Part shown: piece by piece, positions 9,130-33,620 of the stretch
Position numbering within the stretch: the first letter of the stretch is position 1
How the letters are laid out: every line of letters starts with the position of its first letter
NCBI GenBank assembly: GCA_013204105.1
Contig: JABMOM010000006.1
Location: 1 to 38,254 of the forward strand
Length of the DNA: 38,254 bases
Direction of reading: 5' to 3'
Source of the DNA: Flavobacteriales bacterium
Lineage (GTDB): Bacteria > Bacteroidota > Bacteroidia > Flavobacteriales_G > Salibacteraceae
The notes under the pieces: model-generated
Databases searched by the model: none
Told to the model about the DNA's origin: nothing
What the model saw: only the letters and a program-made list of their open reading frames with translations
Program-made: the position numbers and the translations under genes

Positions 9130-10170
9130 ATGTCCACCCCTACCTTGCATCGAAAAGGCAGTCTACTCGCAGCCCCCGGCCAACAATTAAGCTTGTTAGA
9201 GCAAGTTCAAACGGCCGCTTTCACATCCAAGCTGAAAGAGACAGCGGCCTACCCGTTGCGACCAAATGCCTTGGAGGTATTGCAGCTAAACCTCGGCTAT
9301 CAATGCAATCAAACCTGCGCGCATTGCCACGTAGATGCAGGTCCCGACCGCAAGGAGGTTATGTCCAAAGAAACCATGGAAAAGATTGTTGAAGTCCTTT
9401 CCCATCATCCCATTGCCACCCTCGACCTCACCGGTGGCGCCCCCGAAATGAATCCAAATTTTCGGTGGTTTGTCGAGACCGTGCGCCCCTTGGTTGACGA
9501 ACTCATCGTCCGTTCGAACCTGACCATCTTCTCCGCGAATGCCCGCTTTCACGACATGCCGGCATTTTTTGCCGAACAACGGGTACGCGTGATTTCATCC
9601 TTGCCCTGCTATACCGAAGCCAATACAGACCGCCAACGCGGCAATGGCGTATTTCAGCGTTCGATCGAAGCGCTGCGTCAATTGAACCGCGTGGGCTACG
9701 CCCAGTCTGAAACAGGCCTCGAACTCGACCTCGTATTCAACCCCCAAGGAACTTCGCTGCCGGGTCCTCAAGCCGCTTTGGAGGCCGATTACAAACGCAT
9801 CTTGAAGGACGAGCACGACCTCAGCTTTGATCGCCTGTTCTGTATTACCAACCTTCCCATCAGTCGCTTTCTGGACAGCCTGGTCAAAGCGGATCGCTTG
9901 GAGGAATACATGCAAAAACTTGTCGACGCCTTCAATCCAAGCACTATTGCAGGCCTCATGTGCCGAAACACGCTTTCGGTCGGTTGGAACGGAAGGCTCT
10001 ACGATTGTGATTTCAACCAGATGCTTGACCTTGAAATCAAACGGGATTCTGGGCGTCACATCGACGACTTGGACCTCACCCAACTCGCTGATCGCGAGAT
10101 TGTTGTTCATCAACATTGCTTTGGTTGCACTGCAGGGGAAGGGTCCTCTTGTCAAGGAACATTGGTGTAA
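9130..10170 (+). CDS. arsS: Arsenosugar biosynthesis radical SAM protein ArsS
   Basis: A 346-residue radical SAM enzyme. The [4Fe-4S] ligands are the CxxxCxxC at Cys59, Cys63 and Cys66, inside the family signature CNQTCAHCHVDAGPDRKE. TGGAPEMNP follows as the SAM-binding glycine motif. The C-terminal half carries the Cys-rich block of the family: CRNTLSVGWNGRLYDCDFNQ and HCFGCTAGEGSSCQG. ArsS is thought to transfer the 5'-deoxyadenosyl group to a methylated arsenical during arsenosugar formation. The next gene encodes the family glycosyltransferase usually found with it, 9 bp downstream. The arsenite methyltransferase ArsM and other ars genes are not in the window. Some homologues carry selenocysteine near the C-terminus; here all such positions read as cysteine. 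Confidence 0.92.
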   Translation: MSTPTLHRKGSLLAAPGQQLSLLEQVQTAAFTSKLKETAAYPLRPNALEVLQLNLGYQCNQTCAHCHVDAGPDRKEVMSKETMEKIVEVLSHHPIATLDLTGGAPEMNPNFRWFVETVRPLVDELIVRSNLTIFSANARFHDMPAFFAEQRVRVISSLPCYTEANTDRQRGNGVFQRSIEALRQLNRVGYAQSETGLELDLVFNPQGTSLPGPQAALEADYKRILKDEHDLSFDRLFCITNLPISRFLDSLVKADRLEEYMQKLVDAFNPSTIAGLMCRNTLSVGWNGRLYDCDFNQMLDLEIKRDSGRHIDDLDLTQLADREIVVHQHCFGCTAGEGSSCQGTLV

Positions 10171-29250: not shown

Positions 29251-29688
29251 ATGAAAACAATTCAATCCATTCTGCTTTTGACCATCGCGGCCTTGTTCCT
29301 GCAAGGCACGCCCGTGAAGGAGTCGGAGCCCGTTGGGATCCAGTTCTTTGAAGGAACTTGGGAAGAAGCATTGCAAACCGCCAAACAAGAAAATAAATTG
29401 GTCTTTCTCGACGCATACGCCAGCTGGTGTGGTCCCTGCAAGCTCCTCAAACGAAACGTCTTCCCTCAATCAGAGGTCGGGACATATTTCAATGAGCACT
29501 TTGTAAGCGTGGCCATCGACATGGAAAAAGGGATCGGACGGAAATTAGCGCAGCAATATCGCGTCACGGCGTATCCAACCCTCTTCTTCCTGGACGGTGA
29601 TGGAAACATCGTCAAGAAAGCCATCGGATACCACAATGCAAGTCAATTGCTCCAAGTGGCAAAATCCACAGAGCATTCGGATTCATAA
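29251..29688 (+). CDS. Exported thioredoxin-family protein
   Basis: A 145-residue protein with an N-terminal hydrophobic signal segment (about 5-20) and a thioredoxin fold. It carries the active site ASWCGPCK (Cys60, Cys63), TAYPTLFFLD with the cis-proline, and GYHNASQLLQV at the end. The segment FFEGTWEEALQTAKQENKLVFLD is typical of DUF255-like/thioredoxin_7 periplasmic reductases of Bacteroidota. A role in periplasmic disulfide reduction is likely; the partner is unknown. A terminator follows, so it is monocistronic. Confidence 0.87.
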   Translation: MKTIQSILLLTIAALFLQGTPVKESEPVGIQFFEGTWEEALQTAKQENKLVFLDAYASWCGPCKLLKRNVFPQSEVGTYFNEHFVSVAIDMEKGIGRKLAQQYRVTAYPTLFFLDGDGNIVKKAIGYHNASQLLQVAKSTEHSDS

Positions 29689-29710
29689 ATACATAGGTAG
29701 GTTAAGGTTG

Positions 29711-29744
29711 AAAAGCCGGTTGTTCATTTCGACGATCGGCTTTT
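29711..29744 (+). terminator. Intrinsic terminator after the thioredoxin gene
   Basis: AAAAGCCG pairs with CGGCTTTT at the base. In RNA the inner GTTGTT/GACGAT continue the stem with G-U pairs, giving 14 pairs around loop CATTTC, followed by CTTTT. Its T-tract runs directly into the -7 box of the next gene. Confidence 0.75.
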
Positions 29745-29750
29745 CTTTTG
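29743..29750 (+). promoter_or_regulatory. -7 promoter box overlapping the terminator tail
   Basis: TTCTTTTG (one mismatch to TAnnTTTG), then CACCC, then ATG at 29756. The box shares its first bases with the terminator T-tract. Confidence 0.4.
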
Positions 29751-29755
29751 CACCC

Positions 29756-30502
29756 ATGAGAATCTCATTCGCATTTCTTTCCGCGCTCGTGCTCTTTGTC
29801 TCGTGTTCAACGAAACCTCAGACAGCACAAGAGATCATTGACGAGACGATCGAGCGAGCGGGTGGCGCACGCTACGAACTTTCTCATATCCAATTTGATT
29901 TCCGAGATCACAGTTATTCAATCCTGCGCAGCGGCGGCTTGTTTGAATACACGCGAACGACCTACCTCACCCCCGACTCTGTCCTGCGCGATGTACTCGA
30001 GAATTACGGCTTCAAGCGTTTCCTCAACGACTCCATGATCTCCGTTCCAGACTCCATGGCTGGGAAGTACCAAGCTTCCGTGAATTCCGTGGCTTACTTC
30101 TTCAGCCTGCCTTATGGATTGAACGACATCGCCGTGCACAAGGAGCTTATCGGAACCAAACGCATCAAGGGAAGGGATCACTTTAAAATAAAAGTGTGGT
30201 TTGATGCGAATGGAGGCGGCGAAGACCACCAGGATGAATTCTACTATTGGATCGATCAGGACTCACTTCAGGTCAACTACCTGGCATATAGTTATCAGGA
30301 CGATGGCGGCGGAATGCGCTTCCGTGAAGCAGTGGAACCGAGGTATATCCGAGGGATTCGGATCGTAGACTACCTTAATTACAAAGCTTCAGATGCTTCC
30401 GTGAAACTGGAAGCGATTGACGATGCTTTTGAGCAAGGCGGGCTCGAGTTGTTGTCGCGCATTGAAAACGACAATGTAACCATCTCGTTGTTAGAGGACT
30501 AG
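29756..30502 (+). CDS. DUF6503 family lipoprotein
   Basis: The protein has 248 residues from the ATG at 29756. The signal MRISFAFLSALVLFVSCS ends in a lipobox with Cys17, so the protein is lipid-anchored. A longer frame starting at 29597 reads antisense-like text and the terminator and is not real. The body follows the DUF6503 pattern: TAQEIIDETIERAGG, IQFDFRDHSYS, LPYGLNDIAVHKELIG, KIKVWFDANGGGEDHQDEFYYWID, YLAYSY, GGGMRFREAVEPRYIRGIRIVDYLNY. The fold is probably an LolA-like half-barrel that binds hydrophobic ligands; function unassigned. It stands alone in its transcription unit. Confidence 0.85.
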   Translation: MRISFAFLSALVLFVSCSTKPQTAQEIIDETIERAGGARYELSHIQFDFRDHSYSILRSGGLFEYTRTTYLTPDSVLRDVLENYGFKRFLNDSMISVPDSMAGKYQASVNSVAYFFSLPYGLNDIAVHKELIGTKRIKGRDHFKIKVWFDANGGGEDHQDEFYYWIDQDSLQVNYLAYSYQDDGGGMRFREAVEPRYIRGIRIVDYLNYKASDASVKLEAIDDAFEQGGLELLSRIENDNVTISLLED

Positions 30503-30610: not shown

Positions 30611-31651
30611 ATGAACATCTGCTTCATCATGTATCCTTGGGACCGCGTAGAGGCCCTCACGGACACAACGCTTCGTATGATCCATGAAGCCTACCTGCGA
30701 AACCACAACGTAGGTATCATGACCCCTAGCAACTTAACAATCCGCAACAACGACGTCTTCGGATTCGTGCGCATGATCGAAGAGAGCGATCGATTGCAAA
30801 AGGACACCGTAAAGTTTCATAAACAGGTCAAATTCAAGGAAGAACTGCTACCCATGTCTGGGTTTGATGTCATCTTTCTGCGTGCCAACCCACCGGTAGA
30901 CAACACCATGCTCAACTTCCTGGATGCCATCAAGGATGAGGTATTCATCGTGAATGATGTAGACGGGATCCGAAAAGCCAACAATAAATTGTACACCGCA
31001 GCCATGTTTCACGGAAAGGCAGGGGTCATTCCTGAGACCCACGTATCCAAGAACAAGGAGTACCTCAAGCGCGTCATTTCCGAATCTAAGTCAGACAAGA
31101 TGATCCTCAAGCCGTTGGACGGTTACGGAGGCAGTGGTGTGATCTTGCTCGAACGGAAGGCTTCGGCAAGTGTGAGCTCCTTGCTTGATTTTTATATCCA
31201 CGGGCAGAAGGAACAGAAGTACGTCATCGTGCAAGAGTATGTAGAGGGCGCTGACGAAGGCGATGTGCGCATCCTCATGCTCAATGGCAAGCCGATCGGA
31301 GCGATGAAACGCGTTCCAGCAAAGGATGAGGCCCGTTCCAACATCCATACCGGTGGCACGGCAATCAAACATGTGCTTTCTAAAGTAGAGCAAAAGATAT
31401 GCGACCTGATGGGTCCACGCTTGGTAGCGGATGGATTGTATTTCGTCGGTTTGGACGTCATCAACGGCAAATTGATCGAAGTCAACGTCCTCAGTCCTGG
31501 TGGCATTACCCGCATCAATAAACTGAACCGCGTCAAACTTCAGCAAAAGGTCATGGACTTCGTAGAGGACGTTGTTATCGCCAAGGAGTCCGCGTTGAAC
31601 AGAAAGCTTGCACACCAACTCACCGTGAAAAATGCAAAAGCTAAGTCTTGA
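30611..31651 (+). CDS. gshB: Glutathione synthase-family ATP-grasp ligase
   Basis: A 346-residue ATP-grasp enzyme similar to GshB. It has the substrate-binding N-terminal domain (MNICFIMYPWDRV, FDVIFLRANPPVDN, NDVDGIRKANNKLYTA), the ATP-grasp core KMILKPLDGYGGSGVILL, and the metal/substrate end YFVGLDVINGKLIEVNVLSPGGI. GshB joins gamma-Glu-Cys and glycine with ATP. No gamma-glutamylcysteine ligase gene is present in the window, and the gene overlaps a predicted hydrolase by 20 nt, so a related ligation (another peptide or amide product) should be kept open. TAATCTTG at 30551-30558 (one mismatch) is a weak promoter candidate. The start at 30611 was chosen because MNICFIM aligns with the family beginning. 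Confidence 0.87.
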   Translation: MNICFIMYPWDRVEALTDTTLRMIHEAYLRNHNVGIMTPSNLTIRNNDVFGFVRMIEESDRLQKDTVKFHKQVKFKEELLPMSGFDVIFLRANPPVDNTMLNFLDAIKDEVFIVNDVDGIRKANNKLYTAAMFHGKAGVIPETHVSKNKEYLKRVISESKSDKMILKPLDGYGGSGVILLERKASASVSSLLDFYIHGQKEQKYVIVQEYVEGADEGDVRILMLNGKPIGAMKRVPAKDEARSNIHTGGTAIKHVLSKVEQKICDLMGPRLVADGLYFVGLDVINGKLIEVNVLSPGGITRINKLNRVKLQQKVMDFVEDVVIAKESALNRKLAHQLTVKNAKAKS

Positions 31652-33620
31652 GGAAATCATCGCCAATATCGAGCAAGGAATATGCTTTGAGGCGAACCAT
31701 GAGGATGCATTCTTTGTAAAGATTCAAGAATATGTGCCCTACGTGTGCACGGCCATTCACGCAGGAACGCGCTTCCGAAAAGAACTAGAAGACGTTTGCC
31801 TATTGAGTGCTGAAGAGCGTTTCTACGAAGAGGATCCCCACACCGAGCAGTTCATCCAATCCCTTCCCATTACATTGGTCGGCAACGATTCAAGGTACGA
31901 GTACGACCTCAACCGATCTCCCGAGCTCGCAATCTATGACGTGGCGTGGGGAAAGCAAGTGTGGAAACGTTCGTTGACAGAAAAGGAAAAAGCTTTATCG
32001 CTCCAAAAACACGCAAACTTCTACGCCGTTGTTCGCACCCTGGTTCAAAAGCTTGAGAAGGATTTTGGAGCTTCTGTGATCTACGACATCCATTCTTACA
32101 ACTACAAGCGCCACAAAACCACCTACTTGTTCAACATTGGCATCGAGAACATCGACGTACGGCGCTACAACAGTCAGTTGAGCTTTTGGAAACGCGAATT
32201 ACTCAAGATCAAAGTTCGCCGTCTCCAATCAGACGTCTCGGTCAACCACATCTTTTTCGGTCGAGGCTACCTTCTAAAATTGGTGCAAGAGGAATTCAAT
32301 GAGTCGCTCGTGCTGGCAACCGAAGTCAAGAAGATCTTCATGGATGAAGATACCGGCGTCGCTTTCCCGCTCATCATTCAATCGATCGCAAAGGGACTCA
32401 AAGCAGCCATCATCAATCACGCACAGCATTTCACCAATGCCATGACGACGATTGATGTCAAGCGAAAGAACACCCTACTCCACGGTGGATTGCAACCAGA
32501 ACTCCTTCATTTGGATAAAGAGCTCTATCGCCTGGCCAAGGACTTTGAGGTACTCGGTTACGTGAACCCACTGAACGTAGAACAGGAAAAGAAGAAGTTC
32601 TTTCGATCCAAATTCATTCGAAACCCAGAGTTCAGGTACAGACCGCTAACGATCGATCCGCACATTTTCAAATCCTTGATGTATCGTCTCGATGTAGACA
32701 GCTTGGAAGACGTGCACATACGCCAGGTGTACATTGACATCATTCGATCTTATACGGACAAGGTAGACCTGCTCAACAGCTTGGGTACAGAGAATTTTCT
32801 CTACAATTCGCTCCGCTACTTCGGTGAACCTTCGGCGCAAGACATTGCCAATGCGACGTTCCTGCTCTACACGAGTGAATTGCCTCAGTTTGAAAACGAG
32901 GCCCTGTTGGACACGAATGATGTAAAAGCAGCCTTCATCGCTGAAGGGAAACGTTATGGCTTCGAATTCAAAGTGCAGGAAGTTAGCCACATACCTTCCG
33001 ACGCACTTGTCATCAATTCCAAGAAATTGCTGATGCTCAAGAAGGGGGCGCGCTTCACCCAGACACGCCTGAACGCATTGCTAAACCATGAAATCGGCGT
33101 GCACATGGTCACGACGATGAACGCCCAGGAGCAGCCGTTGCGCTTTCTAAGTTTGGGTCTTCCGCGAAACACGTATACCCAAGAAGGACTCGCCATCATG
33201 AGTGAATTGCTCAGTGGATGCTTGTCGATTGGTCGACTCAAAGAGCTTGCCTTGCGCGTACTGGCCGTACATTCTTTGACTAAGGGGAATGACTTCAGAA
33301 CTACCTATGAGATGCTGAAGGATACCTATAACGTCAATGAGGATAAACTGTACTACTTGGTAACCCGTGTGTACAGAGGGGGTGGCTTCACCAAAGACTA
33401 CCTATACCTGAAGGGATTCAAGGCCGTACTGGAAATGCAAGCGCAAGATGTGAAGCTGGATAACCTGTTCCTCGGGAAGACTTCTCATTCTCATTTGACC
33501 ATCCTCAATGAATTGGTTGACCGTGGAATACTACAACAGCCACGCTACCGATGCGAGTCGTTTGAGCATCCTAAGGAAATGGACCCTATCCTGAAATACC
33601 TCACCAACAGCCTCAAGTAG
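31632..33620 (+). CDS. Fusion: N-formylglutamate-amidohydrolase-like domain + QEGLA (DUF1704) metallopeptidase
   Basis: A 662-residue two-domain protein. Residues about 1-260 resemble the N-formylglutamate amidohydrolase superfamily: IHAGTRF at 42-48, EEDPHTEQFI near 66-74, GNDSRYEYDLNR at 84-95 and YDIHSYN at 151-157. Residues about 285-662 belong to the DUF1704/QEGLA family, annotated in databases as 'flavohemoglobin expression-modulating QEGLA motif protein'. It shows the HExxxH site NHEIGVH (His486, Glu487, His491) and QEGLA at 517-521, whose Glu518 is the expected third metal ligand. Eukaryotic relatives of this family (MATCAP/TMCP) are carboxypeptidases that trim the terminal tyrosine of tubulin. 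The gene overlaps gshB by 20 nt, so it is co-translated. Substrate unknown; the 'flavohemoglobin' label is not informative. Confidence 0.85.
   Translation: MQKLSLEEIIANIEQGICFEANHEDAFFVKIQEYVPYVCTAIHAGTRFRKELEDVCLLSAEERFYEEDPHTEQFIQSLPITLVGNDSRYEYDLNRSPELAIYDVAWGKQVWKRSLTEKEKALSLQKHANFYAVVRTLVQKLEKDFGASVIYDIHSYNYKRHKTTYLFNIGIENIDVRRYNSQLSFWKRELLKIKVRRLQSDVSVNHIFFGRGYLLKLVQEEFNESLVLATEVKKIFMDEDTGVAFPLIIQSIAKGLKAAIINHAQHFTNAMTTIDVKRKNTLLHGGLQPELLHLDKELYRLAKDFEVLGYVNPLNVEQEKKKFFRSKFIRNPEFRYRPLTIDPHIFKSLMYRLDVDSLEDVHIRQVYIDIIRSYTDKVDLLNSLGTENFLYNSLRYFGEPSAQDIANATFLLYTSELPQFENEALLDTNDVKAAFIAEGKRYGFEFKVQEVSHIPSDALVINSKKLLMLKKGARFTQTRLNALLNHEIGVHMVTTMNAQEQPLRFLSLGLPRNTYTQEGLAIMSELLSGCLSIGRLKELALRVLAVHSLTKGNDFRTTYEMLKDTYNVNEDKLYYLVTRVYRGGGFTKDYLYLKGFKAVLEMQAQDVKLDNLFLGKTSHSHLTILNELVDRGILQQPRYRCESFEHPKEMDPILKYLTNSLK

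Follow-up and report, generated by a model that had tools for sequence, protein, structure and literature searches.

A predicted FGase-QEGLA hydrolase fusion and its GshB-like ligase partner in Bacteroidota and other bacteria

The locus and the fused protein

In this work, we focused on a fused hydrolase gene and its upstream partner, both carried by a 38,254-nucleotide stretch of DNA from a Flavobacteriales bacterium (assembly GCA_013204105.1, contig JABMOM010000006.1, positions 1 to 38,254 of the forward strand), hereafter the window, i.e. the whole stretch analysed. The open reading frame at 31632..33620 (+) starts with ATG and encodes a single chain of 662 residues, in which an N-terminal half related to N-formylglutamate amidohydrolase (FGase) is followed by a C-terminal half of the QEGLA family. 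An original prediction, made from the sequence, had noticed the motifs IHAG (H43, G45) and DIHSYN (D152-N157) in the first half and NHEIGVH (H486-H491) and QEGLA (517-521) in the second, and this two-part layout was borne out by the reading frame, Pfam and NCBIfam. It had overlooked the main functional clue, a GshB-like ligase gene that overlaps the start of the fusion. The overlap suggests translational coupling of the two genes (Table 1), and the gene set probably builds and trims a small peptide-like molecule or a protein tail.

Table 1. Features of the ligase and fusion genes (window coordinates)
Feature	Position	Strand	Evidence
GshB-like ATP-grasp ligase (NF009110/PRK12458 type), 346 aa, upstream partner	30611..31651	+	NF009110, GSH-S_ATP, core residues as in E. 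coli GshB
Fused FGase-QEGLA (MATCAP) protein, 662 aa	31632..33620	+	Pfam, NCBIfam, predicted fold
Overlap of ligase 3' end and fusion start, 20 bases	31632..31651	+	Reading-frame coordinates, DNA
FGase-like half, residues 1-272	31632..32447	+	PF05013; 2q7s Z 25.0, 2odf Z 22.1
Linker, about residues 273-287, boundaries approximate	32448..32492	+	Gap between the two structure matches
QEGLA/MATCAP-like half, residues 288-662	32493..33617	+	PF08014, TIGR02421; 7z5g Z 26.0
FGase motif H43-x-G45	31758..31766	+	Invariant in alignment A2 (17 rows)
FGase motif D92-x-N94-R95 (R95: proposed carboxylate-binding Arg)	31905..31916	+	Invariant in A2 (17 rows)
FGase motif D152-x-H154	32085..32093	+	Invariant in A2 (17 rows)
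FGase E231 (proposed general base)	32322..32324	+	Invariant in A2 (17 rows)
HExxxH metal site (predicted), H486-E487-H491	33087..33104	+	114/114 rows; aligns with HEIGTH of MATCAP
QEGLA, E518 (proposed third metal ligand)	33180..33194	+	114/114 rows; aligns with EEG of MATCAP/TMCP

Pfam matched PF08014, which it calls MATCAP, to residues 321-660 (E 1.3e-97, 327.5 bits for a cut-off of 27) and PF05013 (FGase) to residues 36-173 (E 1.6e-14, 55.1 bits for a cut-off of 28.9); the NCBIfam model TIGR02421 (QEGLA) scored 375.6 bits, its cut-off being 338.65. An AlphaFold2 model of the fusion was built from 54 rows (mean predicted local distance difference test 93.2; predicted template modelling score 0.89) and compared to solved structures using VIA-align. 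Residues 24-272 of this predicted model matched the FGase 2q7s (Z 25.0, 237 aligned, root-mean-square deviation (rmsd) 2.3), the N-terminal half matched 2odf of the same family (Z 22.1), and residues 308-662 matched human MATCAP 7z6s/7z5g (Z 26.0, 293 aligned, rmsd 2.9). At E <= 0.001, Foldseek returned 12 chains, every one either human MATCAP (7z5g, 7z6s) or FGase family (2q7s, 2odf). The next VIA-align matches were mainly M14 carboxypeptidases for the N-terminal half (Z about 11-12.5) and DUF885 and M32 peptidases for the C-terminal half (Z up to 16.7). By sequence, a profile of 18 QEGLA domains reached the MATCAP chains (9.5e-17), HEIGVH falling on HEIGTH and QEG on EEG, and the FGase profile of alignment A2 (17 homologues) matched no chain among the solved structures; a search of a viral sequence collection gave no match.

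The two-hydrolase fusion is real, both folds being predicted. The proposed kinship of the QEGLA half to MATCAP and TMCP stands on PF08014, the profile alignment and the predicted fold, and that of the N-terminal half to FGase on PF05013 and the predicted fold; the lack of an FGase fold, named beforehand as grounds for giving up the two-hydrolase reading, was looked for, and residues 24-272 are predicted to have that fold. The families themselves are already known. The C-terminal half exceeds the cut-offs of both TIGR02421 and PF08014, carries HExxxH plus Glu and has the predicted fold of human MATCAP, but the form described here differs from MATCAP/TMCP in being bacterial, fused to FGase and linked to a ligase, with no tubulin target. 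The N-terminal half has the predicted FGase fold and bears the motifs HxG, DxNR, DxH and E, which we take to be the canonical FGase motifs, HutG being a member of PF05013 as well; it differs from known FGases in its weak sequence match (55 bits), its fusion and its setting, as a Pfam scan of 20 proteins of the window, which did not extend to the remaining genome, turned up no Hut enzyme. For this reason, and because its conserved neighbour is a ligase, we do not favour an ordinary FGase of the histidine pathway.

The likely metal site of TMCP consists of HExxxH plus one residue from the EEG motif, and MATCAP and TMCP trim the C-terminal Tyr and Glu of tubulin, according to PMC10499314. The bacterial PF08014 label is silent on chemistry, and the animal relatives have only recently been shown to edit tubulin tails. 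The original caution that the database label on flavohaemoglobin expression says nothing about chemistry was fair, since in the one paper where the phrase was found it serves as a label only.

The HExxxH/Glu518 site, whose loss among homologues had likewise been named beforehand as grounds for giving up this reading, was preserved throughout: H486, E487, H491 and E518 are identical in all 114 rows compared (fused, separate, long and lone QEGLA proteins, L088 being left out), whether a ligase is present or not. On the FGase side, conservation among the 40 fused rows of alignment A3 was 40/40 for G45 and D152, 39/40 for H43 and D92, 38/40 for N94, 37/40 for H154, 36/40 for E231 and 35/40 for R95. 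Fused rows deviating at any of 12 FGase positions were L068, L070, L075, L079, L098 and L119, all Gammaproteobacteria by title, and further damaged sites were found in L165 (genome G352) and L170 (a Vibrio plasmid). Seven of these fused proteins (L070, L075, L079, L098, L119, L165 and L170) have a damaged FGase site, an intact QEGLA site and no ligase beside them. Damaged copies belong mainly to Marinobacterium and Shewanella lineages, plus Thiomicrorhabdus and a Vibrio. A purely structural role of the FGase half is not favoured for the window protein, its motifs being invariant in A2; such a role may apply to the damaged copies. In L088 (5266-7143), the fused gene lies in two frames, an apparent frameshift or assembly error.

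The ligase partner, gene order and distribution

The upstream gene belongs to NF009110 (PRK12458, 'glutathione synthetase'), scoring 425.9 bits for a cut-off of 408, and matched GSH-S_ATP at 4.4e-55 and E. coli GshB at 2.5e-34 (phmmer). Its ATP-grasp core (KPL.G.GG, GD.R, R.N and the E.N..SP end) is common to 13 aligned ligases of the same gene set (hereafter the cassette, i.e. ligase, FGase and QEGLA) and to E. coli GshB. Tested against glutathione synthase equivalogs, it lies above the cut-off of NF003573 (285.4 vs 272) and below that of TIGR01380 (242.3 vs 299.05); it is also below that of the RimK family TIGR00768 (90.6 vs 143.4).

We assessed the distribution of the three parts among 296 genomes of the window's phylum, Bacteroidota. 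QEGLA was present in 16 of them and the cassette ligase in 15, every one inside those 16. Fourteen of the 15 exceed the curated cut-off; the other, G002, scores 396.5 bits, and the next match 214.8. In this phylum sample, the NF009110 ligase occurs only alongside QEGLA. The FGase clade of the fusion (261 bits or more, which excludes the weak 22.8-bit match of G196) was found in 14 genomes, 13 of them within the QEGLA set and the exception being G128. Within the window's order, 8/42 genomes have QEGLA, fused in 8/8 and accompanied by the ligase in 8/8; six have it whole next to the fusion, in G313 it is truncated at the end of a contig, and G319, whose fusion is itself split across contigs, has it on another contig.

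A scan of named genomes (ARRANGEMENTS) confirmed 566 relatives, and the named loci described here are the best 80 of these 566, which lean towards the window's own type. They comprised 40 fused loci (33 with a ligase near), 32 loci with separate, neighbouring ligase, FGase and QEGLA genes, and eight lone QEGLA genes without ligase, so that a ligase lies near FGase and QEGLA at 65 of them (33 fused + 32 separate). The fused loci came from Bacteroidota (24), Gammaproteobacteria (13), Planctomycetota (1) and Bdellovibrionota (1), one being unassigned. The separate form made up one supported clade of the QEGLA tree, mainly flavobacterial. The statement in the original prediction that the two hydrolase genes are neighbours rather than fused in proteobacteria thus held only in part: plasmid records of the alphaproteobacteria Sinorhizobium, Aminobacter and Shinella do show FGase then QEGLA, but 13 of the 40 fused loci among the best 80 of 566 are gammaproteobacterial. 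After these two genes, the Aminobacter and Shinella records list a glutathione synthase/synthetase, and the Sinorhizobium record lists no gene for the stretch that comes next.

This statement seems further weakened by a long QEGLA form of 609-643 residues, found at eight loci (L023, L024, L025, L027, L028, L029, L030 and L032), all with their own ligase and six with a separate FGase with intact motifs. Its additional N-terminal domain (~225-260 residues) matched the FGase profile (probability 95.7, E 8.8e-9), and a model of it matched 2q7s with Z 12.9 (173 aligned, rmsd 3.2), many other rows lying at Z 9-10. Plain Foldseek places 2q7s no higher than rank 26 (E 0.022), after nucleoside phosphorylases and other matches; the domain has lost the HxG, DxH and E motifs, and no Pfam match was obtained in the sole member scanned (L023). 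From the profile and VIA-align results, this domain of the neighbour-type QEGLA appears to be the remnant of a decayed FGase, which suggests that the fusion is old; the tree is unrooted and favours neither order of events.

Beyond the cassette, no third protein is conserved beside it across lineages, the commonest other cluster covering 25 loci among the best 80 of 566. This cluster (c3, e.g. L115:1683-3008) encodes SDF-type Glu/Asp or dicarboxylate symporters located upstream in flavobacteria, 58-89% identical to the L023 gene from which the family was assigned. Among the best 80 of 566, a rhodanese-type gene stands between the ligase and FGase genes in L106, L109, L121 and L134, and the same arrangement occurs in L023 and L026, a possible hint of sulfur chemistry; the gene's family was verified for L106 and L023 and taken from clustering for the other loci. 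A candidate QEGLA-ligase fusion, the 914-residue frame of L031, was rejected because QEGLA lies in a different frame.

Association between the ligase and the FGase site

Across 98 loci, the FGase site was intact at 78 and not intact at three of those with a ligase near, and intact at two and not intact at 15 of those without; among the latter 15, six have a damaged FGase and nine have no FGase at the locus. In the QEGLA tree, nine independent pairs differ in the ligase, and in six or seven of them the FGase state shifts along with the ligase; no pair shifts against it, apart from a single opposite pair in 1/200 draws (median p 0.0156, range 0.0156-0.125). We also compared 16 additional fused loci, none of them more than 73% identical to those already used (with two pairs 95-97% identical to each other): 15 have the ligase, 14 of them fully intact and L178 with D68S, and the one without a ligase nearby, Vibrio HDW18, has a damaged FGase (D68A, H154Y). 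For the four core residues of 59 fused proteins, the table read 49, 1, 2 and 7 (Fisher 8e-7, not tree-corrected). Trees were inferred by a quick method and carry a long-branch warning, for L018 above all; L088 was left out of them and hand-counted as fused, and the L116 ligase, truncated where its contig ends, was scored as present.

Ligase absence at the 17 ligase-less loci was judged on whole genomes (n=16, L165 being in the genome of L092 and L018 in G186); for L170, it was judged on a 14-kb plasmid stretch. A whole-genome check of 22 genomes gave a cassette ligase above cut-off in eight, plus one of 392 bits in G350. The genomes of L070, L075, L079, L098 and L119, loci with a damaged FGase site, yielded no cassette ligase above cut-off, nor did those of L083, L104, L112, L124 and L132, loci where QEGLA stands by itself and FGase is missing. 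These genomes do contain weaker ATP-grasp matches (at most 232 bits), probably of ordinary GshB- or RimK-type.

The FGase site tends to be lost when the ligase is missing, and QEGLA can stand alone. This co-loss, together with the persistence of QEGLA, points to an FGase half that is of use only in the presence of the ligase and to a QEGLA half with a use of its own. The same pattern argues against two sites that always act on one substrate in turn. The original proposal of one substrate for both sites is supported only in part: the two-hydrolase fusion is real, but the FGase site is damaged in seven ligase-less fusions whose QEGLA is intact, and in L068, which has the ligase, and QEGLA also occurs alone.

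Possible functions of the cassette

We give about an even chance to the reading in which the fusion supplies the hydrolases of a conserved ligate-and-trim cassette with three activities, acting on a glutamate-like peptide or N-acyl compound. First, the GshB-like ligase, going by its family, would couple an amino acid or an amine to a carboxylate at the expense of ATP, the acceptor being a glutamate-like small peptide or an N-acyl amino acid. The FGase half, by its fold and motifs a probable metal-dependent amidohydrolase, would then cleave an amide in a compound that depends on the ligase, so as to take off a cap or dismantle the ligase product; its reliance on the ligase step is supported by the co-loss pattern. 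Finally, the QEGLA half, as a putative metallocarboxypeptidase related to MATCAP/TMCP, would remove a C-terminal peptide residue, and it could serve a wider pool of peptides, because it persists without the ligase and FGase. The fusion and the gene overlap would keep these activities together. The strong low-salinity induction of a neighbouring 'GshB' and 'QEGLA' pair in Photobacterium damselae, described below, also speaks for this reading. A branched job is suggested, with the ligase and FGase on one compound and the carboxypeptidase also on other peptides. FGase hydrolyses N-acyl-glutamate-like amides, and a glutamate-like peptide or N-acyl compound would be the simplest common substrate. 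Both conserved sites, the predicted folds, the ligase linkage and the ligase-FGase association were obtained by computation. The tie to a specific ATP-grasp ligase makes the ligase product a concrete substrate lead for the fusion. In a literature search of titles and abstract openings, mostly open-access, we found, among the records listed, no account of the fused form, of the ligase link or of the FGase decay pattern.

Several observations weigh against this reading. For the 59 fused proteins, the tree test on the four core residues had too few pairs to reach significance (4 same, 0 opposite, 2 undecided, p 0.125). At nine of the 17 ligase-less loci FGase is missing altogether, three of these being second copies in genomes that also carry another cassette; a further copy that includes FGase is present in the genomes of L086, L087 and L092. 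L068 has a ligase and a damaged FGase site, and L178 has a ligase and the single change D68S; conversely, the FGase site is intact in L122, where no ligase was found, and in L074, whose genome has ligases only elsewhere. L030 and L032 combine ligase and QEGLA without FGase, and G128 has FGase without QEGLA. The ligase also exceeds the NF003573 glutathione synthase cut-off, which keeps plain glutathione chemistry in play, and no substrate or activity is on record for the bacterial form.

Glutathione or gamma-glutamyl thiol synthesis and turnover, in which the ligase would be a glutathione synthase and both halves would salvage glutathione-like peptides, is the first alternative, and we consider it unlikely. 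It is consistent with the NF003573 and NF009110 matches, with the retained GshB core residues and with the rhodanese-type gene between ligase and FGase at four loci of the best 80 of 566 and at L023 and L026. It is made less likely by the gamma-Glu-Cys ligase PF04262 occurring in 0/23 QEGLA genomes and by GCS2 occurring in just 9/23, the window's genome among them, where its copy adjoins a different ATP-grasp frame; the TIGR01380 score under the cut-off also counts against it. The cassette ligase differs from the NF009110 'glutathione synthetase' in keeping company only with QEGLA in the phylum sample and in lacking any PF04262 partner in these 23 genomes. The 'glutathione synthase' genes annotated beside QEGLA may not make glutathione. 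The GCS2-type ligase of the window's genome (G000:C26:105825-107458, a 423-residue frame) and its ATP-grasp neighbour of 494 residues look like a separate amide-ligase module, and the same pairing recurs in G186, G211 and G171.

Likewise unlikely is a protein-tail editing cycle, in which the ligase would add residues to a protein C-terminus or side-chain carboxylate and the hydrolase halves would remove them, much as happens on tubulin with TTL/TTLL ligases and the carboxypeptidases CCP and MATCAP, or on the ribosomal protein RpsF with RimK and RimB. The cassette does join an ATP-grasp ligase to a relative of MATCAP, whose family cuts tubulin tails as noted above, and to an FGase half with mainly M14 carboxypeptidases as its next structure matches. 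TTL has the ATP-grasp fold, and tubulin tail editing (TTL/TTLL, CCP, MATCAP/TMCP) resembles the cassette in combining an ATP-grasp ligase with a MATCAP-type carboxypeptidase; that system, however, is eukaryotic, and a protein target of the cassette is purely hypothetical. In bacteria, the RimK/RimB(/RimA) polyglutamylation system couples an ATP-grasp ligase to a dedicated protease and exists also as a hybrid enzyme, as stated in the abstract of PMC11957791, but RimB is a retropepsin-like aspartic protease, whereas the cassette has two predicted metallo-hydrolase folds and a GshB-type ligase. Against tail editing, the ligase resembles the small-molecule enzyme GshB more than RimK, the cassette has no third neighbour conserved across its lineages, and FGase and M14 are alike in broad fold only. 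The bolder version, that the cassette is a bacterial toolkit for C-terminal tail or peptide editing made of tubulin-code fold classes (an ATP-grasp ligase, an M14-like hydrolase and a MATCAP carboxypeptidase), from whose trimming arm the eukaryotic MATCAP/TMCP descend, appears to us quite improbable.

The least probable alternative is a compatible-solute module that would make and dismantle a capped glutamate-type dipeptide in osmotic adaptation. The symporter gene on the ligase side, at 25 loci among the best 80 of 566, fits such a role, and many named cassette carriers belong to what we take to be marine or saline genera; relatives are present in soil rhizobia too, which speaks against it. 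In RNA sequencing of Photobacterium damselae at low salinity, RS17020, named glutathione synthetase GshB by the authors, was 38.4-fold up and the 'QEGLA' gene RS17025 27.5-fold up, according to a table in PMC10308900. These two genes would correspond to the cassette, judging from their neighbouring tag numbers and from two Photobacterium replicons (L204, L205) in which the ligase lies directly 5' of an intact fusion; the salinity-regulated RS17020 would then be one of the annotated synthetases that may not make glutathione. Strong induction of both genes supports the solute reading, but co-induction of ligase and hydrolase fits neither pure synthesis nor pure breakdown, and comes from a single paper on a single species.

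Elsewhere in the window, a thioredoxin-like frame (29251-29688) and a DUF6503 frame (29597-30502) lie just upstream of the ligase with a 92-base overlap, and the start of the DUF6503 frame may be overcalled. A radical SAM protein with a C-terminal DUF3641 domain is encoded at 9130-10170, and the product of 324-2387 combines an adenylate/guanylate cyclase catalytic domain with a TPR match below the cut-off.

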